Assembly (NCBI RefSeq): GCF_000739615.1
Contig: NZ_BATP01000003.1
Location: forward strand, 124,001-188,000
Direction of reading: 5' to 3'
Source: Haloferula sp. BvORR071
GTDB taxonomy: Bacteria > Verrucomicrobiota > Verrucomicrobiia > Verrucomicrobiales > Akkermansiaceae
DNA length: 64,000 nucleotides
Both the position numbers and the translations under genes were made by a program. The notes under the pieces are model-generated. The model was not told the origin of the DNA. It ran no database searches and saw only the letters and a program-made list of their open reading frames with translations. How positions within the stretch are numbered: position 1 is the first letter of the stretch; each line of letters starts with the position of its first letter. This document shows positions 18,237-42,257 of the stretch, in pieces.

Positions 18237-19706
18237 TTAGCGATTCGACGAGTTTCCCCCGTCTTGCTGATACGTAAGCATCCGTACCTTGAGGTCATCC
18301 AAGGAAACGTCGCCGCCGCCATCGTTCGAAACCACGAGAGAGTCGAGCGAATGACCGGATCCCACCTGGAAGGGAGTGTCGATGAGTTCGCCCTTGGTGT
18401 CGGTCCCTTTGTAAAGGCTTACCAAGCCAGTCCCGCTGTCGTAGCTGAGGGTGATGTCAGCCTCCGACAGGGCGGAGACCCGGGTGCCGATCGAGTACTT
18501 CGTGGGATCGTTCTCAGGTTTGATCTCGTCCTTGATCTGCCAGTGGTGGTCGCGGGATTTGCGGGCCACCAAGCTGAAGGCGGGGCCTGCATTGCCGCTG
18601 CGAATAAAGGTGATGCGCTCTGCAGCATCGGGGAAGGCTGCCTTGTCCCAGATATTCGCGGGGCCGCGGGTGGAGAAGGTGACGATGTAAACCTTGCGGT
18701 CGGTAGTCTGCCCGCCCTTGAAGCGGGCGAGCAGAGAGCGCGGGCCCTTCGAAGTATCGAGCCTGCCGCCGGTGATGGTAGAGGGGTTGATCTCCATCTG
18801 GGTGACCCAAGGCAGACCGATGTCCGGCATCTTGCCGTCGATCTTGGTGCCGTCCGCTTCGTTGAAGTCGTCGTCGAAGATGGTGACATCGCGCGGCAGG
18901 CTCTCGGCGAAGCGACCGCGGGTGCCCAAGCCACCTTGGATCGCGCCCTTGCCGGTCCAGCGGGCCATCTCGCCGGCGCGGATCTCGTGTTCCACCTTGC
19001 CGTCTGCCTCCCGGACAATCCCCACGGTGCCGTCGATCACGTGGACTTCCACCTGCTTGGTGCTGCTCACATTGACGCCGAACTGGGTGCCGATGTCGCG
19101 GAGAGTGCCGCCACCTGGGGTCAAGACCTCGAAGCCTTTGCCGCCGGGCTGGATAGCGAGGAAAGCGCTGCCTTCCTGGAGATCCAGTTTGCCCTTTTTA
19201 GCCGGTAGGCGGAAGCGTGCGGGAGCCTCGACGACAACCTTCACGTGAGTGCCGATGTCCATAGACAGCAGGCCGTTCGTGACCACGACTTCCTGATCCT
19301 TCTCGAGGGTGGTATCGGTATCGATGGGCTGTCTGACGCCGGCGATGGTGTAGATGCACTCCTTGGAGGCGCTCAGGGTCGCGGCGGAGGGTTGGCCGCG
19401 GAAGAGGTAGGTGCCGCCCAAGGTCAGCAGTACGCAGGCGGCTGCGGCCCAGAAGGCGATTCTGATCACCTTGTGCTTCGAGCGCCGGACCACCCAATGA
19501 TCCTCCATGGTCTTGGCCTGGACCGAAATGTGAGTGGGCACTTCGTAGCGCTCCGAGAGCATCAGATCGACGCCGATAAGATCGTAGTATTCAGCGCGGA
19601 TCTCTGGATTGACCCGCATCGCGCCTTGTAGCCGCGCAAAATCCTCACGGCTGATCGAGCCATCGATCAGGCGATTGAGGAGGCGGTTGACATCGTGTTC
19701 TTCCAT
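18237..19706 (-). CDS. FecR-like transmembrane protein with C-terminal beta-sandwich
   Basis: A 489-residue single-pass membrane protein. Residues 1-80 are cytoplasmic and start with a helical segment (NRLLNRLIDGSISREDFARLQGAM) like those that contact the partner sigma factor. A membrane helix (IAFWAAAACVLLTLGGTYLF) follows near residues 83-102, then a periplasmic FecR domain (VVVEAPARFRL, EGSAFLAI, GFEVLTPGG, DIGTQFGVNV, VEVHVIDGTVGI). The C-terminal half resembles a LamG/concanavalin-like beta-sandwich that could bind glycans. In this arrangement, well known in Verrucomicrobia and Planctomycetes, the protein would pass an outside signal to the sigma factor encoded 4 bases upstream. Start ATG is set by that tight spacing. 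Confidence 0.85.
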   Translation of the reverse strand: MEEHDVNRLLNRLIDGSISREDFARLQGAMRVNPEIRAEYYDLIGVDLMLSERYEVPTHISVQAKTMEDHWVVRRSKHKVIRIAFWAAAACVLLTLGGTYLFRGQPSAATLSASKECIYTIAGVRQPIDTDTTLEKDQEVVVTNGLLSMDIGTHVKVVVEAPARFRLPAKKGKLDLQEGSAFLAIQPGGKGFEVLTPGGGTLRDIGTQFGVNVSSTKQVEVHVIDGTVGIVREADGKVEHEIRAGEMARWTGKGAIQGGLGTRGRFAESLPRDVTIFDDDFNEADGTKIDGKMPDIGLPWVTQMEINPSTITGGRLDTSKGPRSLLARFKGGQTTDRKVYIVTFSTRGPANIWDKAAFPDAAERITFIRSGNAGPAFSLVARKSRDHHWQIKDEIKPENDPTKYSIGTRVSALSEADITLSYDSGTGLVSLYKGTDTKGELIDTPFQVGSGHSLDSLVVSNDGGGDVSLDDLKVRMLTYQQDGGNSSNR

Positions 19707-19710
19707 TAGC

Positions 19711-20244
19711 TCAGGATTCGCGAGGGGAGAGTTGGCCGCGGATGCAGCGGCGGAGATTGCCGCGAAGCTGGAATAATCGGGCCTTGAGGGTGCCGACGCT
19801 GCGCTCGGTGGCGCGGGCGAGGGCTTCGAGGGATCCGCCGGACCAGTAGTGGTGGCGGATCAATTCGTCGTCTTTGGGGGTGAGTTTCTTGAGACACTCG
19901 GTCAAAGCGAGGCGCCTTTCGGGTAGTTCGTCGATGACCGAGGGCATCTCGGAGGCGAAGCACTCGATCAGATCCGCATCGAAGCAGACCGAGCGGTCCT
20001 TCTTCTTGCGGCGGAGGTAAGTCATCACCTCAAGCTGGGCGATGCGGAAGGCCCAGTTCTTGAAGCTGCTGCCGGGCCGGAATTTCTCGCGCTTGCGCCA
20101 GAGGATCATATTCACGGCCTGGCGGATATCGGCGGCCGCGTGCGGGTCCCCGCAGAGCGCTCGAATAAAATAGAACAGGTCGCCCTGACACTGGGTCAGC
20201 TCCTGAACGAAGTCTTCGAGGTTGTCCTTCTTTTTGCGGTCCAT
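19711..20244 (-). CDS. Sigma-70 family factor, Rhodopirellula/Verrucomicrobium type
   Basis: A 177-residue ECF-like sigma factor. Region 2 lies at about residues 12-80 (FYFIRALCGDPHAAADIRQ, ILWRKREKF, FKNWAFRIAQLEVMTYLRRKKKD) and region 4 at about 110-170 (LTPKDDELIRHHYWSGGSLEALA, VGTLKARLFQLRGNLRRCI), with the helix-turn-helix for -35 recognition. It fits the group described as TIGR02989. The start at 20244 (MDRKKKDNLEDFV) is preferred to 20304 because the extra 20 residues are proline-rich and unlike the family. It is followed 4 bases later by the FecR-like gene, its likely regulator, and then by the Verru_Chthon genes that it may control. Palindromes upstream may be control sites. Confidence 0.88.
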   Translation of the reverse strand: MDRKKKDNLEDFVQELTQCQGDLFYFIRALCGDPHAAADIRQAVNMILWRKREKFRPGSSFKNWAFRIAQLEVMTYLRRKKKDRSVCFDADLIECFASEMPSVIDELPERRLALTECLKKLTPKDDELIRHHYWSGGSLEALARATERSVGTLKARLFQLRGNLRRCIRGQLSPRES

Positions 20245-20263
20245 GGGCAGCGAGAACGCTAAT

Positions 20264-20342
20264 TCACGTGAGGGAGGCCATGCCCGGTTTAGCGGAATGA
20301 CCATAAATTCAAGGATTCACGGGAATTCGGCATAACCGTGAA
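20264..20342. promoter_or_regulatory. Palindromes upstream of the sigma factor gene
   Basis: The leader of the sigma gene holds an 8-base perfect palindrome TCACGTGA (20264-20271), 20 bases before the start codon, and an inverted repeat TTCACGG (20316-20322)/CCGTGAA (20336-20342). The shared core CACG suggests a repeated binding site, possibly for autoregulation. No -35/-10 pair was clear. Confidence 0.3.
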
Positions 20343-20450: not shown

Positions 20451-20912
20451 ATGCCGCGCTTTTTCGAATTGACGCTGCGTCCGCGAGGAAAGATCCACAC
20501 GGGCGTCTTGAACCGCTTCGTGCGCATTGCCGTCGCCGTCCTTGGCTGCCTGCATCTCTGCGGCGGCCAGTGGGGGGCGTTGCAGGTGGTGGCGTGGACG
20601 AAGATGATCGTCGACTACTCGGCGCAGGATGGCTTGGCCGAAGGCGCTGCAAAGACCTTCGACGGGGCGCACCCCTGCTGCATGTGCAAGGCGATCGCCG
20701 AGGGCAAGAAACAGGAGAGCAAGGAGCAGAATAGCAAAGCACCCCTCGCGGCGCAGAATCTGGCGCTGAAGGAGTGTGTGCTCGGCAAGCCGATCGTGGT
20801 GCCTCCGCCTGTGACTTGCGAAGCGACGGTGGTGGTCCTGCCTGACTTCGCGAGTAACGGAGCATGGGTTGGCTATCGTCCGCCAGTGCCACCGCCACGA
20901 CTGGCCGCCTGA
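20451..20912 (+). CDS. Membrane-anchored protein with a HPCCMCK cysteine motif
   Basis: A 153-residue protein with a purine-rich ribosome site (GGGGAAGGGGG) right before ATG 20451. After a basic start comes one hydrophobic segment (FVRIAVAVLGCLHLCGG, about residues 23-39) and then VAWTKMIVDYSAQDG, a segment leading to the motif DGAHPCCMCKAIAEGKK (about residues 71-87). The rest is charged, then Pro-rich at the C-terminus. The His-Pro-Cys-Cys-x-Cys group could hold a metal or heme, or form disulphides. I recall similar short proteins in other Verrucomicrobia but know of no assigned function. It is the first gene of a plus-strand group with a di-heme protein and a His-rich barrel, which is the main hint at metal or redox biology. 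Confidence 0.7.
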   Translation: MPRFFELTLRPRGKIHTGVLNRFVRIAVAVLGCLHLCGGQWGALQVVAWTKMIVDYSAQDGLAEGAAKTFDGAHPCCMCKAIAEGKKQESKEQNSKAPLAAQNLALKECVLGKPIVVPPPVTCEATVVVLPDFASNGAWVGYRPPVPPPRLAA

Positions 20913-21240
20913 TCCATCCCGAACTTCCGGTGGATTGATTGCCGCGGGAGGACTGTCGTCGGGTTGACTCATGCCTAGCTGTGGGCGGCACACCTGTGCC
21001 GGGCCGGAGCGAGGCGAGGATGCCGAGGTGGTGCCGAGCCGTTCATCGATAGCTATCTACTGGAATCATCGTGGCCCGATTCAAGCCGCCTGCATGAAGG
21101 GCGAGTTTGTTTGTCTGCACGGCTGATCATGGCTGAGGCGGAAGGCTGACGAGGGGATGGCGTGCCTTGCTTCGTTCGCTCCGCGGATGCGTGTGCCTCC
21201 GTGGGTCCTGTTAGGCCCCTGACTGCGAATTCCTTCGCCG
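20913..21240 (+). other. Intergenic stretch, nothing recognised
   Basis: About 330 bases between the Cys-motif protein and the di-heme propeller gene. No convincing gene, hairpin terminator or promoter was seen; the small open frame starting at 21162 overlaps the next gene's signal peptide in another frame and reads as chance. Confidence 0.4.
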
Positions 21241-23853
21241 ATGCTTTTTCGTATTCCTGTCTTCGCCGCGATCCTTCTCGCGGCTGTCGCGCCGCTGCGT
21301 GCTCAATTCGAGGCCCGCCAAGTGCATCCCGTGGCGCTAACCCCGGATGGGACGCGCTTGCTGGCGATTAATTCGCCGGAGGCCGCGCTTTCAGTCTTCG
21401 ATATCTCGAACCCTGCGCGGAGTGCGCCCTTGTTGATCGATGAGATCGGCACCGGGCTGGAGCCGGTCTCGGTGCGTGCCCGCGGCAATGACGAGGCGTG
21501 GGTGGTCAACGAGCTTTCGGATTCGGTCTCGGTGATCTCGCTGAGCGAGCGGCGGGTGCTTGCAACGCTGGCCGTCCCGGATGAGCCGGCGGATGTGGTG
21601 TTTGCAGCAGGGAAGGCTTTCGTGTCCTGTGCACGGAATTCGCAGCTGCGGGTCTTCGATGCGGTGACTCGTGCGAGCCTGGGGTCGATTCCTCTGAACG
21701 GGGTGTATCCGCGGGCGCTCGTGGCAAGTGCGGATGGTAGCAAGGTCTATGTTGCGTTCCTGCTCTCGGGGAATGGGACGACGATCCTGCCGAGGAGCGA
21801 GGCACCGGCGCAGCCCGCGCCGTCTAACAGCAGCTTGCCCGCTGCGCCGCAGACGGCTTTGATCGTGGCGGCGAGCGATCCGCGGATTCATCATCAGGTG
21901 CTGGATCGCGACGTGGCGGAGATCGATTGCGCAACGCTGAGCGTGAGCCGCTATCTGGGTGGGACTGGCACTCATCCCTTCGATCTCGCGTTGCATCCGG
22001 GGACCGGGGATCTGTGGATTGCGAATTCGGAGTCGCTGAACTTGGTGCGCTTCGAACCGCAACTGCGAGGGAACTTCGTAAGGCATCGCTTGACCAAGCT
22101 GCCGCTGCTGGGAACCCCGGTTGCTTATGATCTCAATCCGACGGTCAACTACAGCATGCTGCCGAATGAGGCGGCGAAGGCCGTAGCGCTAGCGCAGCCA
22201 ACTGGACTGATCTTCACTGGCGATGGCTCGCGTGCATGGGTGGCGGCGTTCAATTCGGACCGGGTTGCCGAGGTGAATGCGGCGGATGGGGGTGTGCTGA
22301 ACCGGGTGGATCTGAGGACGGGCGGGGGAGGCTCCGCTGCGATGCGGGGACCAAGAGGGCTAGTGCTATCCGCTGACGGGGCGCGGCTGTTTGTGCTGAA
22401 CAAGCTATCTAACAGCCTGACCGTGGTCGATGCCGCGACGCGGGCGATCTTGTCCGAGATTCCGGTGGGGAGTTTCGATCCGACATCCGCTGCGGTGCGG
22501 GCCGGGCGCGGCTTCCTTTTCGATGCGCGGCTTTCTGGCAATGGCACGAACTCTTGTGCGAGCTGCCATCTTGATGCCGACCGCGATGGACTGGCGTGGG
22601 ATCTCGGGGATCCGGGTGGTGCCATGGTGATGGTGCAGGGCGCGAATCTCTCTGCCCACAATACGCAGCTCCGCAACCGCAGCCTGCACCCGATGAAGGG
22701 GCCGATGGTCACGCAAACGCTGCGCGGGATGGTGGGGAATATTAGCGGGGTGACGATTCCCGCTGCGGCGGTGACGCCGAAGTTCCACTGGCGCGGCGAC
22801 AAGCCATCGATCCAGAGTTTCAATCCGACCTTCAGCAATCTGATGGGTGGCAGCCAGCTTCCGGCGGCGGACATGGATGCCTTGGCAGCGTATTTGATGA
22901 CGATCCCGCATCATCCGAATCCGAACCGGAATCCGGATCGCAGCTTGCCGACTTCCTTTCACGGCGGGAATGCGGTGTTTGGCCGCGATCTCTTCAACGA
23001 CCACTTGGTAAGCCATTGTGTGGTCTGCCATCCGTTGCCGGCGGGAACGGACAACAATATCGACCTGCGCCGCGAGGTGGATGGCACGCAGGAGATGAAG
23101 AACCCACCGCTGCGCACGGTCTATCAGCGCGCGGAGCTCTACGATCCGGCTGCGGGCGCGACATCGCTTTCGGGCTTCGGGCTGGGCTCGGACGGCACGG
23201 GGCACGAACTGCCGCGGATCCACTTCTATCAGCTCGACACGATCGATTCCGAGTCGGACCTCGCGAACCTGACCGCCTTTGTGTTGTGTTTCGACACGGG
23301 GACCGCACCGGCGGTGGGCCGCAGTGTGACGGTGGATCTGGTGAGCCGGAATTCGGCGACGGCGCTGGCGGAGATCGCGCTGCTAGAATCCCAGGCGGGA
23401 ACGAATTGTGATCTGGTGGTGCAGGGAAGGTCGGCGGTGGACGGCCATCGTTTCCGCTTCAACCCGGGGAGCCAGAAGTATGAGGCGGATCGCAGTTCGA
23501 TTCCTCCGCTTACCCGGGCCCAGACGCTCGACCTCTTGGTTGCTGGCGAGTCCTTCACCTTCCTCGGCGTGTCTCTGGGAGATGGCTCGCGGATGGGTGG
23601 AGACCGCGATGGCGATGGTATCCGCGACGCAGACGAGCTGGAGCCGGTGCCTTTGATCCAAGTGAGTGCGAGCGACAGCGCCTTCCTTTGGCCAGCAGCG
23701 GCAAGGGACTGGACGCCTGAGTCTTCCTCCGTGTTGCCGGGGTCATGGCTGCCGCTGAACGCGGTGCCGGTTACCGAGGGTCCCTTCCTGCGCATCAATC
23801 CGAGTCCGGTGAGTGGCGGCAGCCAGTTCTTCCGCCTGCGCCGCACCTGGTGA
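21241..23853 (+). CDS. Secreted beta-propeller di-heme cytochrome
   Basis: An 870-residue exported protein. A signal peptide (MLFRIPVFAAILLAAVAPLRA) precedes a YVTN/NHL-type beta-propeller over about residues 25-410, with repeated motifs such as VSVISLSERRVLATL, LRVFDAVTRASLGSI and LTVVDAATRAILSEI. Two c-type heme sites follow: CASCH near residue 437 and CVVCH near residue 596, each within a cytochrome-c peroxidase-like or di-heme region with downstream Met residues. A calcium-type loop DRDGDGIRDADELE leads into an 80-residue C-terminal tail ending QFFRLRR. Such proteins carry electrons or oxidise small molecules in the periplasm; the substrate is not clear. The PEP-CTERM and histidine-rich barrel genes follow directly on the same strand. 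Confidence 0.82.
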   Translation: MLFRIPVFAAILLAAVAPLRAQFEARQVHPVALTPDGTRLLAINSPEAALSVFDISNPARSAPLLIDEIGTGLEPVSVRARGNDEAWVVNELSDSVSVISLSERRVLATLAVPDEPADVVFAAGKAFVSCARNSQLRVFDAVTRASLGSIPLNGVYPRALVASADGSKVYVAFLLSGNGTTILPRSEAPAQPAPSNSSLPAAPQTALIVAASDPRIHHQVLDRDVAEIDCATLSVSRYLGGTGTHPFDLALHPGTGDLWIANSESLNLVRFEPQLRGNFVRHRLTKLPLLGTPVAYDLNPTVNYSMLPNEAAKAVALAQPTGLIFTGDGSRAWVAAFNSDRVAEVNAADGGVLNRVDLRTGGGGSAAMRGPRGLVLSADGARLFVLNKLSNSLTVVDAATRAILSEIPVGSFDPTSAAVRAGRGFLFDARLSGNGTNSCASCHLDADRDGLAWDLGDPGGAMVMVQGANLSAHNTQLRNRSLHPMKGPMVTQTLRGMVGNISGVTIPAAAVTPKFHWRGDKPSIQSFNPTFSNLMGGSQLPAADMDALAAYLMTIPHHPNPNRNPDRSLPTSFHGGNAVFGRDLFNDHLVSHCVVCHPLPAGTDNNIDLRREVDGTQEMKNPPLRTVYQRAELYDPAAGATSLSGFGLGSDGTGHELPRIHFYQLDTIDSESDLANLTAFVLCFDTGTAPAVGRSVTVDLVSRNSATALAEIALLESQAGTNCDLVVQGRSAVDGHRFRFNPGSQKYEADRSSIPPLTRAQTLDLLVAGESFTFLGVSLGDGSRMGGDRDGDGIRDADELEPVPLIQVSASDSAFLWPAAARDWTPESSSVLPGSWLPLNAVPVTEGPFLRINPSPVSGGSQFFRLRRTW

Positions 23854-23884
23854 GCTCTTTTTCCTAACTGAATCGATACATACC

Positions 23885-24613
23885 ATGAAAGCCAAACTCC
23901 TCGCGGTCTTCCTCGCCGCTCCGCTTGCCCACGCCGCCACCGTTACTTTCCACGATGCCGAGAATCCTGATGCCGCCGGAGGCATCGGATATGAATGGTC
24001 GGTCACGCTCGGTAGCGAGGAGGTCATCTCGACGCCTAACGTCGCGGGTTCGCATGTCGGTGCGTGGTCTTGGGAAGATCAGGGTCTTTTCGATCCCGGC
24101 GATCCGACGGTGGGCTGGACCCATACTTCCCAGTGGGCAGCCATCACCCTTACGGAGGCTGCCTATTTTACGGTCCGGCTCGAAGCGAATGGTGCGGTGC
24201 CTTATACCGGGGCAGGTAACGTCGGTGGATTCCGGCCAAGCGACAACTTCTTCCCGTCGTTCACGCTCTATTCGGGAATCGACCAAGATGCGATCCCGGA
24301 TGCGATTGCGGAAGCCTTGGGGCTGAACCCCGCGGACGGTGAGAACCACATGTACAATAACCGCGGCAACATCGACTGGGCCGAGGATCTCACCTTTGTT
24401 GGCTTAAAGGAGAACAGCACTCAGTCTTTCGCTGAGGCCACTTGGTTCCTACCTGCGGGCACCTACACCCTGGTGATGGGGAGCAATGCGCCCTCCGAAT
24501 CGAACCCGCCGCGGCAGGGATTCAAGGCAACCTTCACCACGGCGCCCGAGCCTTCATCCGCACTGCTGGGGGCCTTTGCCGCCGGGCTCCTGGTGATTCG
24601 TCGCCGCCGTTAA
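23885..24613 (+). CDS. PEP-CTERM-like secreted protein
   Basis: A 242-residue exported protein with a short signal peptide (MKAKLLAVFLAAPLAHA) and a C-terminal sorting signal: APEPSSALLG, a hydrophobic helix and the cluster RRRR. In the PEP-CTERM system an exosortase/archaeosortase-like enzyme cleaves or processes this tail, often in EPS-producing bacteria; no such enzyme is seen in this window. The middle is beta-rich with aromatic and acidic residues (GYEWSVTLGSEEV, GAWSWEDQGLFDPGD, FTLYSGIDQDAIPDA), as in many PEP-CTERM proteins, without a named domain. It lies 31 bases after the di-heme protein and 27 before the His-rich barrel, so the three are probably one operon. Confidence 0.82.
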   Translation: MKAKLLAVFLAAPLAHAATVTFHDAENPDAAGGIGYEWSVTLGSEEVISTPNVAGSHVGAWSWEDQGLFDPGDPTVGWTHTSQWAAITLTEAAYFTVRLEANGAVPYTGAGNVGGFRPSDNFFPSFTLYSGIDQDAIPDAIAEALGLNPADGENHMYNNRGNIDWAEDLTFVGLKENSTQSFAEATWFLPAGTYTLVMGSNAPSESNPPRQGFKATFTTAPEPSSALLGAFAAGLLVIRRRR

Positions 24614-24640
24614 TCCAAGCTTCCCAATCATATTTTACCC

Positions 24641-25510
24641 ATGCGCTCTAACAAAACGATGATTTGCTGCCGTGCCGCCTTGCTGGTGACGGCTTTGCTC
24701 CAAGGGATTGCCAATGCCCACCACGGTGAGGACTTCCTCGTGGTCATGGACTCGACCGTGCCGGAACCGATGCATGCCACGGTCTTCAGTGCGATCGAGT
24801 GGTCGCGCCGGGGCACCGAGGACGAGGTCGGTTTCGAGCCCGGCTTCATGGCCGGGGTGCTGCCGGGGCTGGCTGTGGGCAGTAGCTTCCAGTTCGGCGA
24901 CGAGGACGGCGCGGGCTGGGAATACAGCGCTGTGGATCCCTCGATCCAATGGACCCTGCCGATCGGGGACTTCCCAGTGAAGTTCGCAGTCCACGCGGGT
25001 TACGTTTTTGCCGACGAATCCGACGACGATCATGACCATGGTGCTGACGACCACGACCATGATGAAGATGATGGCGGGGTGGACCCCGGTCCCGACGGCC
25101 CCTTGGGCGGCGGTATGGAACACGACCATGATCACGGTGAGGAGCATGAGCACTCGCACAGTCACAACGGCATTCATCGCCACGGCCAAGATCACTTCCA
25201 CATGCGGCTGATCGCGGATACCAAGCTGGGTGATCACACACGGCTGGTGGCGAACCTGATCGGCGTGGCCCCTGGCGGAGGGGAGTATGACTTCGGCTAT
25301 GCGATTGGGCTTCGCTACCAGTTCAGTCACGCTTGGGCCGCGGGTATCGAGAACATCGGGGACTTTAATACCCACGGTGAGAACGAGCTTATCGCGGGAC
25401 TTTACTGGACCCCGATCCACTCCTGCACCATCCGGCTCGGTGCGGGTGTGGGCATCGGCCAGGCCTCCAGCGACTTTTCGCTGCGGAGCGGGCTCACTTG
25501 GCGGTTCTAA
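24641..25510 (+). CDS. Outer-membrane beta-barrel with histidine-rich loop
   Basis: A 289-residue protein. After a signal peptide (cleavage near GIANA-HHGED) it consists of amphipathic beta strands and ends in LRSGLTWRF; a final Phe after alternating residues is the usual outer-membrane insertion signal. Between about residues 130 and 190 lies a loop with some twenty His residues interleaved with Asp/Glu (DDHDHGADDHDHDEDD, EHDHDHGEEHEHSHSHNG), fit to bind zinc, copper, nickel or cobalt. Another HH pair lies at the mature N-terminus. I recognise no named porin family. Position after a di-heme protein and a Cys-motif protein supports a role in metal capture or efflux at the outer membrane, an inference only. 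Confidence 0.72.
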   Translation: MRSNKTMICCRAALLVTALLQGIANAHHGEDFLVVMDSTVPEPMHATVFSAIEWSRRGTEDEVGFEPGFMAGVLPGLAVGSSFQFGDEDGAGWEYSAVDPSIQWTLPIGDFPVKFAVHAGYVFADESDDDHDHGADDHDHDEDDGGVDPGPDGPLGGGMEHDHDHGEEHEHSHSHNGIHRHGQDHFHMRLIADTKLGDHTRLVANLIGVAPGGGEYDFGYAIGLRYQFSHAWAAGIENIGDFNTHGENELIAGLYWTPIHSCTIRLGAGVGIGQASSDFSLRSGLTWRF

Positions 25511-25593: not shown

Positions 25594-28500
25594 TCAAGGA
25601 CGGGAAACGAGCACGCGGGCGAAGAGCTTGTGGCCTGCCGACTCCTCGGTCCGCGGGATCGAAACCTCCACGGTGTCGAGCGCCGCTGAGGGAGAGTCCT
25701 CCGCGATACTAGCCATGCCCGCACTGGTAGCACCGATAGCGACTTCATGAGCCGCGCTCCAGAGAGAGAGGTCGTTGGTCCATTGAACCTTGATGGTCAC
25801 ATCACCTTCGCTGAGGTCGGTGCGCTTGAAGCTGAGCACCAGGTGGGTGGGTGTGAGGGAGCAGGCGGGCAAGCCCGACTGGCTTGAGGCGCCGGTGCCG
25901 GCGGGAACTCCGCCGAAGACGAATTCCAGCAAGTTGGCCACGCCATCGTGGTCGGGATCGTCATTCACGCCGTCGTTGACTCCGGCGGTGAGACCATTGG
26001 CCGGCAGGGTCTTCCAAGCGTCGTAACCGCTGCCGGTCTGATTGATGATGATCTGGGTGGCGGTGTAGGCGACCGAATAGCCGGCAGGCAGGTTCTTGAT
26101 GGCGAAGGTGCCAGTGAGGCTGGTGGCTTCAGCGATCACGTAGCTCGGTTGCGTGGCGGGGCTAAGCTCGGTGACATTGAGGGTGGCACCGCTGATGTTG
26201 AGATTGCCGCTGACGACCAGCTTGTCGGCGGCGACACCGCTGACCTCGATATCCAAGGAACCGGTGAGGGTGGTGGGGCCTGTGGTCAGCGTGCCGACAC
26301 TCGTTCCCGGGGCGATGCTGCCCGCCGCCGTGACAGTGCCGGGGAAGATACCCGTGCCTGCAAGCTTGGCTCCGGCTGAGACATTTACCGGGCTGGAAGC
26401 GGAGATGCTGCGAGGAGCAAGGATGGCCAGAGTTCCCTCCTGGACGGTGGTGTTGCCGGTATAGGTGCTGCTGCCTGTCAGGGTCAGCTTGCCCGTGCCG
26501 ACCTTGGTAAGCGCGGTAATCTGGTTGGTGCCGCTGCCGTTGGCAATCACACCGCCGAAGCTGCTGTCAGTGCCGAGCGCGCCGACCGAAAAGGTAGCCG
26601 TGGTGTTGTTGACGTTGTTGCGAAGCCGGGAGTTGGATGTGGCTCCGGTGGTCGAGAGCTCGCCCATGTGGACCGTGCCTCCGGCGGCCATGTTGGCGAC
26701 GTAGGCGGAAGTGGAAGAGAGAGTTCCTTCGGTGCTAAAGGTGAATTTGGCGGCCTGACTTGAGGAGCTGGAACTGTTGAAGAGGATGGTGGTGCCGGCT
26801 TGCCAGAGGTTGAAGGTGCCGGTGAAGGCCGAGTTGTCCGCGGTCAGTGTGTCGCTGCCGTCCATGATGTTGAGCACGCCGCTGCCACTAAGGCGGCCCG
26901 TGAGGGTCCGGCCGCTGGCGTTCTGGGCAATGAAACCATTGCTGAGAACTTCGATGTCATTTGGCAGATTTCCGGTGCCTGCGTTGAGGTAAAGCCGGTT
27001 GTTGGTTCCGAGCGTGCCATTGGTCCCAATCGCACCGGCCGCGGCTACATCGAGCACGATGAGGGCGTTTGAAAAATCGGCGCTGAAGTTGTTGCTGCGG
27101 ATGTTGCCGCTGCGCTGGCTCAGCGAGCCGCTGAAGTTCTTCAGGCTGGTGTTGAGCTGGTATTGGTTGCCGGAGCCGATGTCCGAAATGAGGTTGATGT
27201 CTCCGCCGATGATGTTGATGCCGTTTTGGATGCCATTGTTTTTCACCGTGAGTGAACTGGGCTGACCGCTGCTATTGCGGATCGCGCCCTCGGCGGTGCC
27301 AAGAGTGCCGATGGTCTGATTGAAGCCGTTGAGATCGAGGACGGCCCCCGAGGCGATGGTTACGGAAGGGGCCGCAGCGTTGCCGATACCGAGGGGGCTT
27401 GAGGTAGTGCCCACCTGGCTGACACCGAGCTTGGTGATGCCCTGGTTGATGGAAACGGCACCGGTGAAGGTGTTGTTTCCGCTCAAGGTAGTCGTGCCGG
27501 GGCCGGAAAGCGTGAGGCCGCTGTTGCTGCCGTTGTCGGCAATGTTCGAGGCGACCTCAAGAGAGGCGTGATTGATGAGGATCAGCTCGCGGCTGGCACC
27601 GTTGGCATTGCCACGGATGGTGCCACCGCTGATCATCGAGCCAGTGGCCACGGGTGTCACCAATACGCCGCCGGTGGCAACGGTATTCACACCGTCCAAG
27701 CCGAGCAGTTTATTGGGAGCACCGCTGAATCGCAGCGAATTGACCGTGACTCCGGAGACCGAATCACCGCCTGCGACATCGACGTTGGTCGCGGCTGTGT
27801 AGGTAGTCCCGTAGGAGCCCGCTGGCAGGCCGGAAAGCGTGTAGGGTCCCGTTCCGGACTTCGTGAGCCAGGTGGTGCCACCAACGGTTTGGTAGGCTGA
27901 ATTCGAGCTGTTGGTGGCGATGCCGTTGGCTGTGTTGGCGCTGGTGGTCGTGACCGAGCCTGAGGCGGGGAGCACGAAATCCATCGTGCTCTGAGCATTG
28001 CGGGTCATGCCGCCGAGGGTGACGTCGACAGTCGTCGCCCCATTCGGAACGACGGTAAGAGAAGCGGCCCGGTTGGCGCTGGTGGTGATGCCATTGAAAG
28101 TCTGCGAGACGGCAGCGGCGTTCTTCCCTTTCAAGGTGGCGGCCCCACCGAGAGTCAGATTGGTCAGGCCGAGCAGATTCGACGGCACGGCCATACTGGA
28201 AAAATCCAGCACCAGGGAGCCGCTGGAGAGGGTGGTGGAGCCGGTGTAGGTGCTCCCGGTGCTGCCACTGATTGTGAGGGTTCCGGTGCCGGCGTAGGTG
28301 AGCTTGTTCGCGGCAGCCACGGCACTGCTACCATTGGCAACCGGACCGTTGATGGTGACGTCGGCAGCGCCATTCAAGGTGAGGGTGCGGACCGAGGTAT
28401 CAGGATCGATCGATAGATCGATCGCGCCCAAGGTGAGCTTGGCAGCTCCACTGAGGTTATTGGTGAGGGTTCGGTTCGCACCGGCGATTCCGCCAAGAAT

Positions 28501-28938
28501 CCCGGAGGTGAGCTTGCCGGAGAAGCTGACATCGCTGTTACCTGAAACGACCACGGTGGCTGCCTGCAGCCCCATCGGCAAGGCGATGGCTTGAGTGACT
28601 GAGCTGTTGTTAGACAGATTGCCGTTCAAGTTCATGGCGTTCCCTCCCAGCGTGAAAACACTGGCTCCGGCGTTGAAGGTGATGCCGTTGAGGGCGAGGT
28701 TCGCGGCGAGGTCGTTGTTGAGAGTTGCGATTCCCGAATTGCCAAAGATCAATGCATCATTGGCCACCGGAGCGGTGCCGCCCCAGTTGGCCGGGAGCGA
28801 CCAGTTGGAACTGCTCGGAACTGCGGTCCAAGTGCAGTCCCCGGCGAACAGCGGTGAGGCGGCGGCCATGCCTAGTGCCAGCCTGCAGAGACTGCTGCGG
28901 CAGAATGAAGGGGTGGAAGTCGGGTTTTGGGCTTTCAT
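25594..28938 (-). CDS. Large secreted protein with autotransporter-associated beta-strand repeats (1)
   Basis: An 1114-residue exported protein. The start at 28938 (MKAQNPTSTPSF) gives a plausible signal peptide ending near SPLFAGD; the frame remains open 61 codons upstream but this part is Pro-rich and not signal-like. The body is a long parallel beta-helix-type array with PATR motifs (KVGTGKLTLTGSSTYTGNT, GPGTTTLSGNNTFTGAVS, YAGTGTLTISGS). The last 140 residues change character: DDPDHDGVANLLEFVFGG, then a beta module with VQWTNDLSLWSAAHEV and a final FARVLVSRP. No autotransporter barrel is present, so it is not a classical type V substrate. Likely surface adhesion or matrix. It diverges from a second such gene with about 440 bases between their starts. 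Confidence 0.85.
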   Translation of the reverse strand: MKAQNPTSTPSFCRSSLCRLALGMAAASPLFAGDCTWTAVPSSSNWSLPANWGGTAPVANDALIFGNSGIATLNNDLAANLALNGITFNAGASVFTLGGNAMNLNGNLSNNSSVTQAIALPMGLQAATVVVSGNSDVSFSGKLTSGILGGIAGANRTLTNNLSGAAKLTLGAIDLSIDPDTSVRTLTLNGAADVTINGPVANGSSAVAAANKLTYAGTGTLTISGSTGSTYTGSTTLSSGSLVLDFSSMAVPSNLLGLTNLTLGGAATLKGKNAAAVSQTFNGITTSANRAASLTVVPNGATTVDVTLGGMTRNAQSTMDFVLPASGSVTTTSANTANGIATNSSNSAYQTVGGTTWLTKSGTGPYTLSGLPAGSYGTTYTAATNVDVAGGDSVSGVTVNSLRFSGAPNKLLGLDGVNTVATGGVLVTPVATGSMISGGTIRGNANGASRELILINHASLEVASNIADNGSNSGLTLSGPGTTTLSGNNTFTGAVSINQGITKLGVSQVGTTSSPLGIGNAAAPSVTIASGAVLDLNGFNQTIGTLGTAEGAIRNSSGQPSSLTVKNNGIQNGINIIGGDINLISDIGSGNQYQLNTSLKNFSGSLSQRSGNIRSNNFSADFSNALIVLDVAAAGAIGTNGTLGTNNRLYLNAGTGNLPNDIEVLSNGFIAQNASGRTLTGRLSGSGVLNIMDGSDTLTADNSAFTGTFNLWQAGTTILFNSSSSSSQAAKFTFSTEGTLSSTSAYVANMAAGGTVHMGELSTTGATSNSRLRNNVNNTTATFSVGALGTDSSFGGVIANGSGTNQITALTKVGTGKLTLTGSSTYTGNTTVQEGTLAILAPRSISASSPVNVSAGAKLAGTGIFPGTVTAAGSIAPGTSVGTLTTGPTTLTGSLDIEVSGVAADKLVVSGNLNISGATLNVTELSPATQPSYVIAEATSLTGTFAIKNLPAGYSVAYTATQIIINQTGSGYDAWKTLPANGLTAGVNDGVNDDPDHDGVANLLEFVFGGVPAGTGASSQSGLPACSLTPTHLVLSFKRTDLSEGDVTIKVQWTNDLSLWSAAHEVAIGATSAGMASIAEDSPSAALDTVEVSIPRTEESAGHKLFARVLVSRP

Positions 28939-29374
28939 GGGTTTGGGAGTCGAAGTGCCTCGCGGTATTAGCCAAACAGCGCGGTCGTCCTGGCTGGCTC
29001 CGAAGGCAGCGGGCGGAAACATCCCTGCGGCAGGAGGAAAAGCCGCAGCAAATGGAGGTTTGGGGTTTGAAGTCCCGGTTGGGCTCCGGGATCGGGAGTG
29101 ACAGACACCGCCAAGGCTCATTTCGCCCCAAGGTGCCGATACAAGACTGCGCGCTTGGCGAACGGGAATTCAATAACCCGGTTAGGGAATGGGGGCACTC
29201 GGTTGATCGCGCCCTGCACTGCCGGGAACAGCAAGCGGTCCATTGGCTGCCGGTCTCGCCCTTCATAACTCCGATGGGGTAATGGACGGATTTTAGCCCT
29301 GCGTGGATAACGATTCTTGTAATGCGGGAACCTGCCCAGTTCCGGCCTTCGGCAGAACCCAACGCCACAAACCC
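28939..29374. other. Divergent intergenic region between two repeat-protein genes
   Basis: About 436 bases that must hold promoters for both large repeat-protein genes. It is more AT-mixed than the genes and contains short inverted repeats (for example CCGGTTGGGCTCCGG near 29080), but no -35/-10 pair convincing enough to name. Confidence 0.4.
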
Positions 29375-32300
29375 ATGAAAAACTCCCCGTCTATTGGTAA
29401 TTTCAAGCGAGCCTCTTTGCTATCTTGCGCCACTGTCTGCGCGATTTCAGCTGCCCATGCCCAGAGTGGCACGTGGACCGGAGTCGCAAGCCCGGCACTC
29501 TGGAGTAACACCGCCAACTGGACTGGTGGGATCGTCGCCAGCGGATCCGGAAATACGGCACACTTCGAAACCATCGATCTCCCGGATGGCCCGTTCCAGT
29601 TGTCGCTGGATACGCCGCGCACGCTGAGCAATCTGAGCTTTGGCGATATCAATACCACCACCGCTGGCTCGTGGTTGGTGGACAATAATCTCGATCCACT
29701 CAACGTCCTCACGCTCGATGGCACGCCGGTGCTCACCGTGAATGCGATGGCAACCGGTGCCGCGGCGGAGATCAGCGCGGTGGTCGCGGGCAGCGCCGGA
29801 GTGAGCAAGGCGGGAACTGGTGCCCTGACCTTGAGCGGAGCGAACACTTACAGCGGCACCACTGCGGTGAACGCAGGCACGCTCAACATCAATAGCGCCA
29901 CTGCGATCGGCACGAGCACCCTGACTCTGGCCGGGGGCAATATCGGCAGCACCGGTGCCGCAGTAACACTCAACAACAACAACGCGCAGAACTGGAACTC
30001 GAACTTCACCTTCGCGGGGCCGAGCAATCTGGCGATGGGTACGGGTGCAATCAACGTTCCGGGTGCCATCACGCTTACGGCGACTGCAGGCCAACTGAAC
30101 CTCGGCGGCGTCATCACCAGCACTGGCACCTTCACGAAAGATGGCGCAGGTGAAGTGCTGCTCTCCGGCGCGAATGTTGCGAGCTTCACCGGCCCGATGA
30201 CCCTGAAGGGCGGCTTGGTCCGCATCCGTGGCAATATGGCCACCGGTGCCACTGGCGTCGCACTCAATCAAGAGCCCATCGGTTCGCTCACGAAGACGAT
30301 TACTTTTGAAGGTGGAGCGCTCATGCTCAATGGAGCAACAGGAAGCAATGGCCCGACCACCGTTGCCTTCACCAATCCCGTGGTGGTCGCAGCAGGACAG
30401 ACCGGTACCGTCTGGGGGCCCCAGCGTGGTGCTTTCAACTCCACGCTGACTGGCAGCGGCACCTTCAATTTCATCGGCAACTATGTGCGCGGTGACCTGA
30501 ACGGCAACTGGACCGGATTCACTGGCACCGTCAATGCATCCGGTGCCAACACGGCCGGCAATTCCGATGTCCGCATCGCCGGTGCAAACATCCTGCATGC
30601 GGGGCTCGCGCTGAATATTACGAATGCCAGCGTCTATCAGACCTACAACCCGCCTAACAATGCGGTCGGCACCACCCAGATTATCGGCAGGCTGAGTGGA
30701 AGCGCAGCGGCCTTTTTGGGCGGCAGCCCGGTGGGCGGGCGCTTCGTCAACTGGCAGGTGGGGGCTCTGAATCAGGATACCGAATACGCCGGCGTCATCG
30801 GAAATTCGGCCGGTGCGGCCCGCCTCTACAAAGTGGGCACCGGGACTTTGACATTGAGTGGTGCGAACACCTACACCGGGGACACCCAGCTCAATGCCGG
30901 CAAGATTTCGGTCGGAAACGGTGGTGCTTCCGGTAGTCTGGCAGCGACCAACGTGATCACCGTTGCGGGAACCCAACTCATCTTCAACCGCGGCAGCAGC
31001 GCATCGAGCGTCTATCCCGGCATCCTTTCCGGACCGGGCACGATCACGAAGCGTGGTGCTGGCCAGGTGAACTTCACCGGTGCCAATACCTACACCGCGG
31101 GCACCACAATCGAAGGCGGCATCATCGGCATCAATAGCCCGGCATCGCTCGGCAGCGCCGGTGCGGTCAGCTTCACCACCGCCAATGGCGGGGTGATCTC
31201 AATCTTGCCCGGTGTGGTGGAGAGCCGCAGCTTCAACGTGGCCAGTGGCCTCACCGCCAGCTTCGGGGGCGCGACCGCTGGGGATTCGCTGGAAGTCACC
31301 AGTTCCATCACCGGCGCTGGCTCCTTGGCTGTGAGCGGTGATGGCTTCCTCACGCTCTCCGGCGCCAATGCCTACGCCGGTCCTACCACTGTCAGCAGTG
31401 GCGCGCTGGTCGCGGCGAATCTTTCCGGAAGCGCAACCTCGTCCGGCGCGGTGTCATTCTCGGCTGGCACGCTGGCGGGCGAGGGCACCATTGCCGGTGC
31501 CGTGACCACGGCTTCAGGCGTATCTCTGAAGCCCGGTGCACTGACGCCGACTTCTTCGGGCGTCGGCAATCTGACCGTCGGCTCGCTCGCTCTCGCAGGT
31601 GGCACCACGCTCTACACCGAGTTCACCAATTCCGCGACTTACGACAAGATCACGGTTTCCAACCCGAACGGATTGACCGTGTCCGCATCGCTTGCCAATC
31701 CAGTGATGGTGGATCTGCGGGTGGCCAACTCCACCGCCAAGTGGACCACTCCGGGAACCTATACCATCCTGCAGTTTGCAGGCTCCTTCGTCGGAAACGC
31801 CAATGATCTGTTCGAGGTGACTCCAGCCAGCCAGCAGGCCGGCCAGACCTATACCTTCTCGGTCGTAGGGAATAGCATCCAGCTCGTGGTGGCCGGCAAC
31901 TTGCCCTCGATCTGGAATGTCGATGCGTCCGGCAACTGGAGCGCTGCCGGTAACTGGGCGAATGGATCACCCAATGCGATCGGTGCCACGGCTCAGTTTG
32001 ACAGCAAGATCACCGGAACCCAGACCGTGACCTTGGACAGCAGCCGCACGGTGGGCTTGATTCAATTCAACAACGCCAACTCCTATGCGATCGACGGCAC
32101 GGCTACACTGACGCTCAACCAAGCGGTGGGGAATGCCCAAGTCGACGTGCTCTTGGGTGCTCACTCCATTTCGACGCCGATCCAGCTAGCAGATCCAATC
32201 GGCATTGATTTATTCAACGGTGCCAATTCGCTCACCCTGTCTGGAAACATCGGTGGTGCGGGCGGGATCACCAAATCCGGGCCGGGTAACCTGGCGTTGG

Positions 32301-34741
32301 CAGGCAGCAACAACTTCTTGGGGAATCTCTCTTTTGCGAACGGCACGCTGACCTTTGGCAACAAGAGCCTAGGCTCGGGAGCCCTGACCCTGAACAACGC
32401 TTCCCTGGTCTGGGGCCCGGGCAATAACCAGGACATCACGATCGGTCGTGCCATCACCTTCGGGAATGACCCGATCACCTTCTCCATGGATTCGGATGTC
32501 ATTCTTTCGAATGACTTCGGCCTCTCAGGAACGGCCAACCTCACCAAGGACGGCACTGGCAAGCTGACCTTGGTCGCAGACACCAGCTTCTTGGGGAATC
32601 TGACGGTTCTGAACGGCAATCTCACGCTCGGTGACGGTGGCGCGACGGGGTCGGTGCTCGGAGCGATCGCCCTGAACAATGCCTCCAGCATCCTGACCGT
32701 GAGCCACTCGGGTGATCCGGTGATCAACAATCTCATCTCTGGCACAGGCAGCCTGGTGCTGGATGGCAACGGATTGCAGTCGCTGATGCAGCCGAACACC
32801 TTTAGCGGGACGACCACGATCAATGGCGGCACCGCGGTTCTGGGCAGTGGCTTGGCCTTGCAGAATAGCTCGCTCCTCTACAATGCCGCAGGCGGCGCTC
32901 TCGATTTCGGAGCAAACTCCGCGGCAACGCTCGGGTCGCTTGGCGGTGACAAGGATCTCGTGCTTGAGAATGGCTCGGCGAGTGCGGTGATCCTCACGGC
33001 CGGTGGCAACGGAGCAGCCACCGCCTACACCGGTGTCCTCTCGGGGGCAGGATCCTTCACCAAGGCCGGTGCCGGAATCATGACCTTCACGGGAGCACAT
33101 ACCTACAGCGGCGCTACTCAGGTGAATGGCGGTGCCTTGGAGTTGGACTCAACGGTGACACTCAATAACACTACGGTGAGCGTAGGCGCGACCGGCCGTT
33201 TGACCAGCAACGGAGCCACGATCAATGCCTCGGTGGCGTCCAATGTGGCGGCTGGGGCCACAGGCGCGGCCATCTTTGAAGTCTTCGGCGGGACGGCGAA
33301 TTTCCCCGGAGGACTCAATGGCGTGGGTAACGCGACCAACGTCTATCGCATCCAGGTGAGCGGTGGCAGCTTGAGCGCCGGCGGCATGAGCATCGGCCGC
33401 TCCGGCTTGGTCTACACCACGGAACCTGCCGCGGGCTCGGTCAACGATGGTCTGTATGTGAATGGTGGTGATGTGGACATCGTCGGGAGCCTGCTGCTGG
33501 GCAATACTTCCGGAGCCAACTCTTCGGTGAGCACCCGCATCGACTCCGGTAGCCTCGATATTACCGGTCCCATCTCCATCGGCCTCAACAATGGCGGTCG
33601 CTGGTCCGTCGTGGATGTGGGTGGTGGCGTCTTCAGTAGTGCCGACACCGGGACCGGCGTCCGTCTCGGCGGACCGCTCCAAGGCAATGCGGCCTTCCTT
33701 ACCCGCGGCGGTGTTGCCACGGTCGAGCGTTTCCAGTTCGGGAACCTGGCCCTTGGTGGCACCGGCACAGTCGCCGTTAGCGGTGGTGAGCTCTATGTTG
33801 GCTCCGGCGGAATGGTCATGGGCACGACTGAGCCAGGCTACGTGGCTACGCTCCGTCTCTCCGGTGGCGTGATCGGTGCGAAGGCTGCCTGGTCAACGGC
33901 ACTGCCGGTCGCCACCTCGAACGTCTTCGAGGTGAAAGCTGCGGACGCCAGCAGTGTCGCGCACGACATTACCCTATCCGGAGCCGTTAGCGGGACCGGC
34001 TCATTGGTGAAGAGCGGGGCTGGCACGCTGACCCTCTCTGGAACTTACAACTATACGGGCAATACGAACGTCACCGCGGGGACGCTAGTGCTGGGCACCG
34101 CTACGCTCAGCGATGCGGCCACCGTGGACGTGGCCACCGGTGCTGTCATCAATCTGCCCCACGGTCAGGTCGATACGGTTCAGGACTTCCTGATCAACGG
34201 CGTGTCCCAAGGTCCCGGCACCTACACTTCTGCGAATAGCGGCGGGCGGATCACCGGCACCGGTTCGCTCCGTGTGGCGGCCGCCGATCCTTACATCGCT
34301 TGGATTGGCAGCTTCTCGGTCGGCGCTCTCACCGGCAAGGCCGATGATGCCGACGGTGACGGCCTCACCAACCTGGAGGAGTTTGCGCTTGATGGTAATC
34401 CCGCCAGCGGTGCCAGCACCGGCAAGGTCCGCTCGCGGATTGAAACGGTGGGTGCTGATCAAGCTCTGGTGATCACGCTGCCGGTTCGCAGTGGGGCTAC
34501 CTTCAGCGGCACCCCGTCGAAGTCGGCGACCATTGATGACCTGATCTACACCGTCAGGGGCGGGAACAATTTCGCGGCCTTTGACCAAGGCATCACCGAG
34601 ATTGCAGTCAGCTCAACCGGAATGCCGGTGCTGAGCACCGGGTGGACCTACCGCACCTTCCGCTTGGACGGCGCGATTGGTGGTGCCACTCCGCGGGGGC
34701 CGAAGGGCTTCATCGACATCGACACCGTGGATGCGCCGTAA
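29375..34741 (+). CDS. Large secreted protein with autotransporter-associated beta-strand repeats (2)
   Basis: A 1788-residue exported protein with a signal peptide (MKNSPSIGNFKRASLLSCA..., cleavage after SAAHA-QSG); an upstream in-frame start at 29303 is less likely. At least nine PATR motifs are spaced along the chain: KAGTGALTLSGANTYSGTT, KVGTGTLTLSGANTYTGDT, KRGAGQVNFTGANTYTAGT, VSGDGFLTLSGANAYAG, KSGPGNLALAGSNNFLGN, KDGTGKLTLVADTSFLGN, LDGNGLQSLMQPNTFSG, KAGAGIMTFTGAHTYSG and KSGAGTLTLSGTYNYTG. This predicts a long right-handed beta helix. The end again has a calcium-type loop, DDADGDGLTNLEEFALDGNP, and a beta tail, with no autotransporter barrel. Probably a surface or matrix protein. 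A strong terminator follows 36 bases after the stop. Confidence 0.88.
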   Translation: MKNSPSIGNFKRASLLSCATVCAISAAHAQSGTWTGVASPALWSNTANWTGGIVASGSGNTAHFETIDLPDGPFQLSLDTPRTLSNLSFGDINTTTAGSWLVDNNLDPLNVLTLDGTPVLTVNAMATGAAAEISAVVAGSAGVSKAGTGALTLSGANTYSGTTAVNAGTLNINSATAIGTSTLTLAGGNIGSTGAAVTLNNNNAQNWNSNFTFAGPSNLAMGTGAINVPGAITLTATAGQLNLGGVITSTGTFTKDGAGEVLLSGANVASFTGPMTLKGGLVRIRGNMATGATGVALNQEPIGSLTKTITFEGGALMLNGATGSNGPTTVAFTNPVVVAAGQTGTVWGPQRGAFNSTLTGSGTFNFIGNYVRGDLNGNWTGFTGTVNASGANTAGNSDVRIAGANILHAGLALNITNASVYQTYNPPNNAVGTTQIIGRLSGSAAAFLGGSPVGGRFVNWQVGALNQDTEYAGVIGNSAGAARLYKVGTGTLTLSGANTYTGDTQLNAGKISVGNGGASGSLAATNVITVAGTQLIFNRGSSASSVYPGILSGPGTITKRGAGQVNFTGANTYTAGTTIEGGIIGINSPASLGSAGAVSFTTANGGVISILPGVVESRSFNVASGLTASFGGATAGDSLEVTSSITGAGSLAVSGDGFLTLSGANAYAGPTTVSSGALVAANLSGSATSSGAVSFSAGTLAGEGTIAGAVTTASGVSLKPGALTPTSSGVGNLTVGSLALAGGTTLYTEFTNSATYDKITVSNPNGLTVSASLANPVMVDLRVANSTAKWTTPGTYTILQFAGSFVGNANDLFEVTPASQQAGQTYTFSVVGNSIQLVVAGNLPSIWNVDASGNWSAAGNWANGSPNAIGATAQFDSKITGTQTVTLDSSRTVGLIQFNNANSYAIDGTATLTLNQAVGNAQVDVLLGAHSISTPIQLADPIGIDLFNGANSLTLSGNIGGAGGITKSGPGNLALAGSNNFLGNLSFANGTLTFGNKSLGSGALTLNNASLVWGPGNNQDITIGRAITFGNDPITFSMDSDVILSNDFGLSGTANLTKDGTGKLTLVADTSFLGNLTVLNGNLTLGDGGATGSVLGAIALNNASSILTVSHSGDPVINNLISGTGSLVLDGNGLQSLMQPNTFSGTTTINGGTAVLGSGLALQNSSLLYNAAGGALDFGANSAATLGSLGGDKDLVLENGSASAVILTAGGNGAATAYTGVLSGAGSFTKAGAGIMTFTGAHTYSGATQVNGGALELDSTVTLNNTTVSVGATGRLTSNGATINASVASNVAAGATGAAIFEVFGGTANFPGGLNGVGNATNVYRIQVSGGSLSAGGMSIGRSGLVYTTEPAAGSVNDGLYVNGGDVDIVGSLLLGNTSGANSSVSTRIDSGSLDITGPISIGLNNGGRWSVVDVGGGVFSSADTGTGVRLGGPLQGNAAFLTRGGVATVERFQFGNLALGGTGTVAVSGGELYVGSGGMVMGTTEPGYVATLRLSGGVIGAKAAWSTALPVATSNVFEVKAADASSVAHDITLSGAVSGTGSLVKSGAGTLTLSGTYNYTGNTNVTAGTLVLGTATLSDAATVDVATGAVINLPHGQVDTVQDFLINGVSQGPGTYTSANSGGRITGTGSLRVAAADPYIAWIGSFSVGALTGKADDADGDGLTNLEEFALDGNPASGASTGKVRSRIETVGADQALVITLPVRSGATFSGTPSKSATIDDLIYTVRGGNNFAAFDQGITEIAVSSTGMPVLSTGWTYRTFRLDGAIGGATPRGPKGFIDIDTVDAP

Positions 34742-41670: not shown

Positions 41671-42257
41671 TCGTAAAAGCGGTCGGCGAGGACCCTTGGG
41701 TTGCGAAGATGTAATACAACTTTGGGGCCCATTGCAAGCATCTTCCTTAACGGAAAATGCGTCGAATGCTCCCTTCCAGCGCGACCGAGGGGCGGAGACC
41801 TTTCCCGGGCGCCGCTTGGGGGCCGGTAATAGGGGCATGCGGAATCATGACGACCGCTCTCTTGATGTCAGGGAGGCAGCATCGGCAAGCGCCTTGGGCC
41901 TCTTGTGAGCGCGTCGCCAAACTTCTGATTTTGAAGCCACTCCCCGCGCGTCTGCTAGGTCCATAGTAGTTTGGTCTACGCAAAATCGGACGTGGCATTT
42001 TGCAACAAACCCAAGCCCTTATGGGGGTATTGAAGATTAGGTAATCAAACTAGTTTCCAAAGGTTGACGATCCGAGCATTCGAGGTATGAAGGTTCCGTG
42101 GTTCGTCGCTTCGCTTCAAGCGGGGCGATACTCGCTCCCGGACCACATTGTTGCTGTTCATCACCCACCAATTCGCATCCGGGAGAATCTACCGACGGCG
42201 TGTTTACGCTGGTCGAAGAGCGTATCCGTTTCCATCGGAAGGCTCTCCCAGAGGCGG
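41671..42257. other. Intergenic region upstream of the giant gene
   Basis: About 590 bases between the PEP-CTERM repeat gene and the giant gene. A relatively AT-rich core (41940-42060) stands out against GC-rich surroundings and is where control sites for the giant operon would be expected. Open frames here are weak and unlike proteins. One modest sigma-70-type promoter candidate is listed separately. Confidence 0.45.
42064..42091 (+). promoter_or_regulatory. Candidate sigma-70 promoter for the giant gene
   Basis: TTGACG (42064-42069), 16-base spacer, TATGAA (42086-42091): 5/6 and 4/6 matches to consensus, about 170 bases upstream of the chosen start. Alternative -35/-10 combinations exist in the AT-rich core just upstream, so this is only a candidate. 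Confidence 0.25.

Follow-up and report, generated by a model that had tools for sequence, protein, structure and literature searches.

Four consecutive genes on the forward strand of the window (the whole stretch of 64,000 nucleotides analysed here, from a 7.8 Mb Haloferula genome) raise the question of what a short membrane-type protein, a propeller protein with two haem motifs, a PEP-CTERM protein and a histidine-rich barrel do together. A sequence-only reading had suggested that the group captures, oxidises or exports a transition metal at the cell surface. A surface role in metal capture is supported, and the metal can be narrowed to copper, because the third protein has the CorA/MopE fold with its copper-ligand pattern kept; oxidation of the metal by the haem protein and export now appear less likely. 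Copper is very likely the metal, most likely bound as Cu(I). Uptake is probably the direction, and we prefer it over defence because CorA and MopE are reported to be made under copper limitation (PMC3912023, PMC3423442) and because the first gene of the group also heads loci of TonB-dependent receptors. That the locus is a copper-acquisition gene group acting by the full mechanism proposed below is the reading we favour, with reasonable though not high confidence.

The genes, called A, B, C and D in their order, are four open reading frames that lie where the earlier reading had placed them, all on the plus strand. Its description of the last three as tightly spaced is right, as B and C are separated by 31 nt and C and D by 27 nt. 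The gap between A and B measures 328 nt (20913–21240, +) and is probably an attenuation or leader region. An Rfam search gave no match, the promoter scan returned a single promoter-like site, on the minus strand, and the terminator scan found 9 terminator-like sites versus 4.2 expected. Divergent from A, at 18237–20304 (−), lie genes for a FecR-like protein and a sigma factor of the Rhodopirellula/Verrucomicrobium type; this pair was considered as a regulator of A–D and not adopted. On the other side of the group the window holds three very long ORFs, one of 1175 aa with autotransporter-type strand repeats (25594–29121, −) and two of 1812 aa (29303–34741, +) and 5208 aa (42087–57713, +).

The grouping is conserved. 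The cluster is carried also by the cultured relatives Haloferula luteola (L103) and Roseibacillus persicicus (L144), and among 20 loci selected by C, a set that leans towards the finding, both B and D adjoin C in every case, while A was found by blastp in 18; of the two misses, one contig starts inside B and the other locus has a weak 42-bit HMM match. These counts, repeated in loci selected by B alone, show that the clustering is not due to chance. The B-selected set comprises 80 loci from named genomes, with A in 49, C in 50, D in 36 and none of the three in 22; 51 of the loci have 2.5 kb upstream and 3 kb downstream of B. Where B scores at least 1050 bits and flanks are ample (n = 35), C adjoins on the same strand in 34 loci, A in 31 and D in 28, and all three are present in 28. 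The sole same-strand miss for C is Cerasicoccus frondis (L129), in which C is on the other strand, and seven of these 35 clusters have no detectable same-strand D. At amply flanked loci with B below 1050 bits (n = 16), C was found in 3 and was not detectable in 13; these lower-scoring B proteins come from Planctomycetota, Acidobacteriota and other Verrucomicrobiota and indicate a broader family that has other partners. Co-occurrence of the four families in other genomes, which the sequence-only reading had offered as a check of its idea, is thus seen in both C-selected and B-selected loci. Our two locus sets (L031–L090 and L091–L170) overlap in part, and counts of unique sequences are used where stated. 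Several MAGs titled Akkermansia muciniphila carry the cluster (L093, L098, L113, L115, L130), titles that may be wrong, and small genomes of family f1, genus g2, are without it. In the Prosthecobacter-like group, genes for cytochrome c, SCO1/SenC and HMA proteins are located between A and B; these genes point to copper independently of C.

The narrowing to copper comes from gene C (23885–24613, +; 242 aa counted from the ATG), which is almost certainly a relative of CorA and MopE. When a profile of 19 homologues was compared with all PDB chains, two matches only were returned, CorA (4bz4, E 8.1e-4) and MopE (2vov, E 2.9e-3); a search of the PDB with the single sequence gave chance phosphatase matches only. 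The profile alignment to CorA and MopE runs over GWTHHSNW and GWTHTGKW and brings W78 and H80 of C onto the sites of both proteins, while H155, the second histidine of the predicted W78-x-H80 plus H155 site, was assigned from its conservation and not from an alignment with CorA/MopE. All three residues are invariant in the 19 sequences and are kept at 96.3, 97.2 and 96.3% (W78, H80 and H155, respectively) among 107 unique C domains, 105 of which contain the motif [GF]W.H. The AlphaFold model (mean pLDDT 78.2) is a two-sheet beta protein. Foldseek places CorA as its top match, and VIA-align gives CorA a Z of 12.6 (rmsd 2.7 over 144 residues) and MopE 11.6, with the next entry at 9.0 and unrelated sandwiches not above that value. 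Enterotoxin- and collagenase-type domains, also present in the fold list, rank well below CorA by VIA-align and are read as sharing the sandwich fold. C thus has the CorA/MopE fold and ligand pattern. Its score against the Pfam family Cu_bind_CorA (PF18252) is 13.6 bits, below the gathering cut-off of 27.0, and 15 of the 19 members match this family below cut-off; a tandem-domain relative in locus L050 reaches 53.6 bits, above the same 27.0. Full C domains number one in 43, two in 4, three in 12 and four in 5 of 64 unique proteins.

The PEP-CTERM assignment made earlier for C agrees with a tail match at E 7.7e-4, which is just below the gathering score; the motif is found in 18/19 members at E ≤ 1, and the Haloferula genome itself has two exosortase genes above cut-off. 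Many weak C matches in genomes of the order are confined to this tail. The reading of C as a common PEP-CTERM protein was rejected, since the W-x-H and histidine columns and the structure match all extend beyond the tail. Searching the phylum with the C profile gave 6 of 387 genomes, all in the order, a count with likely misses because no more than seven candidates were scored in any genome. A plasmid collection searched with C gave no match. In three loci a second PEP-CTERM protein, scoring 40–55 bits against the C profile, is encoded beside C (L033, 10468–11277; L040, 9527–10426; L041, 1271–2173) and is possibly a degenerate C or one with different ligands.

Gene B (21241–23853, +) encodes a secreted protein of 870 aa in which an N-terminal beta-propeller (Pfam Lactonase, 6.9e-7; NCBIfam YVTN repeat, 3.3e-18) is followed by a MauG/MbnH-like di-haem domain. 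The earlier description as a propeller with two c-type haem motifs is therefore correct: CxxCH motifs are found at C439–H443 and C593–H597, and both are present in 97/97 unique homologues, in all of which W453, H483, H516 and W517 are invariant as well. Pfam CCP_MauG scores 32.9 bits on B, above its cut-off of 25.6, and the MbnH equivalog TIGR04039 scores 23.6, far below 362.85; since that cut-off is not reached, we file B as MauG/CCP-like only and not as MbnH. Among solved structures B is closest to an S-layer propeller, the beta and gamma subunits of hydrazine synthase and, at haem 1, MbnH (6e1c). Hydrazine synthase gamma aligns at haem 1 of B too, but the strongest matches of B are propellers, and the alignment between its haem domain and MbnH is limited to about 30 residues. 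An hhalign comparison of the haem part against eight further di-haem proteins from the family covered the stretch of the second haem only. By analogy with the di-haem neighbours of MopE and CorA, for which a role in making kynurenine has been proposed, B is likely the maturase of C, and we think that it probably modifies C as a Trp-to-kynurenine oxidase. This chemistry need not be tied to C, as relatives of B are found without a detectable C.

The architecture of B and its surroundings vary. In L050 (9953–14284) and its Prosthecobacter-like relatives B is about 1440 aa long and ends in Ig-like domains, which the tandem C proteins of the Prosthecobacter-like loci also have. Two different B proteins flank one C (order B-C-B) in five loci (L104, L105, L115, L116, L057). 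Ten loci from Planctomycetota and Acidobacteriota MAGs (L148, L151, L152, L156, L159, L160, L161, L163, L166, L167) encode B-type proteins in whose vicinity C, A and D were not detected, some of these contigs being short.

For gene D (24641–25510, +; 289 aa) no Pfam family matched above cut-off, and there being no certain Pfam barrel family, the barrel proposed by the sequence-only reading stands on the AlphaFold model (mean pLDDT 81.8), which has the fold of a closed transmembrane barrel of 12 strands. The same reading had counted about twenty histidines in one loop; the protein has 23 in total, 13 of them in a disordered loop (residues 125–184) between strands 5 and 6. This loop would face outwards, given that a periplasmic N-terminus is the usual rule for such barrels. 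The model matches FapF (Z 22.3), the COG4313 channel 4rl8 (Z 20.9; COG4313 corresponds to Pfam Phenol_MetA_deg) and KdgM (Z 19.9), and the copper protein PcoB is found at rank 39 (Z 13.6). Histidine content of D homologues ranges from 3 to 28 and is mostly 14–24 (52 unique sequences, truncated copies included). A scan of the genome contigs with D gave no confirmed match. A zinc role for D was considered and, because of C, not adopted. Pairs of A and D without B and C directly attached were seen in four loci (L086, L087, L090 and L034, 14234–15868), so the barrel with its His loop may have a role independent of the copper protein as well.

Gene A (20451–20912, +) encodes 153 aa with one N-terminal hydrophobic segment, HPCCMC and, near the stop codon, PPVPPPR. 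The His-Pro-Cys-Cys-x-Cys motif reported earlier is thereby recovered, in a family whose conserved form is HPCxxC. What has changed is the role, as a cis-acting regulatory leader is now more likely than a part of the machinery. The first place in the cluster, the CxxC together with the C-terminal PPPR, and the heading of TonB-receptor loci suggest, by likeness to the copper-sensing leaders CruR and CutF, that A is probably not structural, and a copper leader is a rather likely identity for it. No Pfam or NCBIfam family matched gene A above cut-off, and none of 20 members matched DUF2946 (PF11162) at E ≤ 1. Ten columns of an alignment of 20 members are invariant, two of them within the final proline motif; parts with Trp, Met and HPCxxC near the hydrophobic segment are conserved, the centre is variable, and the PPPR end and its distance from the CxxC are held. 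Among 84 unique members, 77 have PxPP or PPP no more than 20 residues from the stop, and the spacing from CxxC to the proline motif is mostly 60–74.

In every gene order observed (A-B-C-D, A-D-B-C, A-C-D-B and A-C-B-D), A precedes the other genes and shares their strand, and 91 of the 92 A hits having a labelled gene on the same strand have it downstream (duplicates included). After A the median gap is 339 nt when B follows, 274 nt when D follows and 252.5 nt when C follows (62 unique loci with a labelled next gene). The A–B region of the window folds as RNA no better than its shuffles (z 0.64) and has no Rho-type C>G bubble; across the 62 loci the C>G signature was not seen either, the 3' ends of A exceeding the next gene in only 35. 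As A is not DUF2946 by HMM and no Rho-type signature was found, we propose only a shared working principle with known leaders, neither membership nor the exact mechanism. Of 239 genomes of the order, 175 encode the A family; B was detected in 78 (E ≤ 1e-30), C in 63 (E ≤ 1e-3, with many hits confined to the tail) and D in 53. The A loci without B and C were chosen by hand among the A hits, for the most part in genomes that have no B, C or D; a TonB-receptor-type family is present in 13 of 18 such loci, its tested members being TonB-dependent receptors, and PepSY_TM, SCO1 and MetA-type barrel genes are found there too. In the tree of A, copies linked to B/C and other copies are interleaved, with 12 label changes (shuffled mean about 20), of which at least 9 are forced by well-supported branches.

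Taken together, the proposed mechanism would run as follows. A would be translated first, its nascent chain sensing copper through HPCxxC, and its C-terminal proline arrest motif would set expression of B–D, so that the group is made at copper scarcity. C would be exported, sorted by its PEP-CTERM tail and displayed on the cell surface, where the di-haem domain of B would oxidise Trp78 to kynurenine. The resulting Kyn78 would, with His80 and His155, bind a single Cu(I) in the manner of MopE* and CorA. D would be an outer-membrane channel whose outward His-rich loop may gather copper or take it from C, and would let copper into the periplasm.

The same genes could be arranged for copper defence, with C and the D loop binding surplus copper and B oxidising Cu(I) or scavenging peroxide. 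Histidine-rich loops and surface copper binders do occur in tolerance systems also, and B has a peroxidase-like fold. It would fit as well that CutF is reported to head a copper-induced multicopper oxidase (PMC9973294). Production of CorA and MopE under copper limitation speaks against defence, as do the uptake context of the TonB-receptor loci headed by A and the clusters themselves, in which neither a P-type ATPase nor an RND efflux gene was seen (flanks viewed unsystematically), and we regard it as unlikely. A different metal is less probable still. Zinc and nickel proteins often have His-rich loops, and the loop of D might be of the zinc-chelating kind and the metal zinc, nickel or iron; the CorA/MopE copper site of C, the SCO1 and HMA genes in the operons of relatives and the resemblance of A to copper leaders all argue for copper instead.

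The group could also work with B not acting on C: B would then be a surface di-haem electron carrier or peroxidase, and C would bind copper through an unmodified tryptophan and two histidines. Relatives of B without C and the limited similarity of its haem domain to MauG/MbnH would allow this, and for CorB-type proteins the role is described as remaining to be elucidated, the knock-out of one still having grown (PMC3912023). However, the same-strand pairing with C in 34 of 35 loci whose B is close to the window type, and the strict conservation of the very tryptophan that becomes kynurenine in CorA/MopE, make such independence improbable, and modification of C by B is the reading we keep. Less readily dismissed, but still rather unlikely, is that A is no regulatory leader but a membrane-bound copper-handling protein, for example a chaperone or a reductase partner. 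Conservation of the Trp, Met and HPCxxC parts near its hydrophobic segment would be expected of such a protein, and the missing Rho signature, special RNA fold and DUF2946 match leave room for it. On the other side, its centre varies while its PPPR end and the distance to the CxxC are held, it opens the cluster and is followed by a long gap, and its partners have changed many times (12 on the tree, at least 9 forced), all of which favours the leader.

If our reading is true, the copper site would be the same in Verrucomicrobiota that include Haloferula, Roseibacillus and relatives of Prosthecobacter, which would make this way of gathering copper more general, and these non-methanotroph hosts could serve the question of which enzyme makes kynurenine. 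Tandem C proteins of two to four domains would represent a new layout of surface copper store. With its 175 genomes, the A family would widen the range of copper-sensing leader peptides far past DUF2946, and it offers a way to find copper-uptake genes in bacteria whose metal biology has received little study. More tentatively, with doubt slightly outweighing confidence, we suggest a self-contained copper scavenging module outside methanotrophs, in which C, with two to four copper-binding domains per chain in some lineages, would have its ligand made by its own propeller-di-haem maturase and would pass copper to a dedicated His-loop channel. Control would lie with copper-sensing proline-arrest leaders of a new and widespread family, which would regulate TonB-dependent receptors across Verrucomicrobiales as well. 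Titles and abstracts returned by literature searches that covered few subscription journals gave no description of the A–D group, and novelty is to that extent unproven.

The statement of the sequence-only reading that no such form had been described is half right, as close precedents exist for B and C. MopE/SACCP of Methylococcus capsulatus and CorA/CorB of Methylomicrobium album BG8 are reported as a surface protein with a Kyn-x-His plus His site, encoded beside a di-haem peroxidase-like protein that is proposed to make the kynurenine (PMC3912023, PMC3621798). Copper is held by His132, His203 and the kynurenine from Trp130 in MopE* (PMC3423442), and by two histidines and Kyn62 in CorA (PMC3912023). 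C shares the fold and ligand pattern of both. In these papers, kynurenine-copper proteins of this type are described from methanotrophs and linked to methane oxidation, whereas the present hosts are Verrucomicrobiota not known as methanotrophs, C carries PEP-CTERM and in some relatives has tandem domains, and genes D and A are added. The propeller on B may be a further difference from SACCP and CorB.

For B, the MbnP/MbnH "metallo-mystery pair" (TIGR04052/TIGR04039) is reported as a conserved pair of a partner protein and a MauG-like di-haem enzyme (PMC3621798). Its likeness to B lies in the haem-1 region, which aligns with MbnH 6e1c; a search of 97 genomes from the taxonomic family to which the window belongs gave nothing above the MbnH cut-off. 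Hydrazine synthase beta and gamma have a propeller plus di-haem arrangement like that of B, but B itself as a hydrazine synthase was rejected, with 57.9 bits versus a curated cut-off of 560 and no alpha subunit seen. D has the same predicted fold as the 12-stranded barrels of the FapF, COG4313 (Phenol_MetA_deg) and KdgM types and differs from them in its His-rich 60-residue loop, at a sequence identity of about 9–10%. The closest likenesses of A are to CruR (DUF2946) of Bordetella pertussis and CutF of Rhodobacter capsulatus, reported as short exported-type proteins with CxxC (CxxxC in CutF) and a C-terminal proline motif of the arrest type, encoded first in copper operons, in the case of CruR with a long gap to the next gene. 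A differs from these leaders in having HPCxxC, PPPR instead of RAPP and a spacing of mostly 60–74 versus 45, and in lacking a DUF2946 HMM match and, in the window, a C>G bubble.
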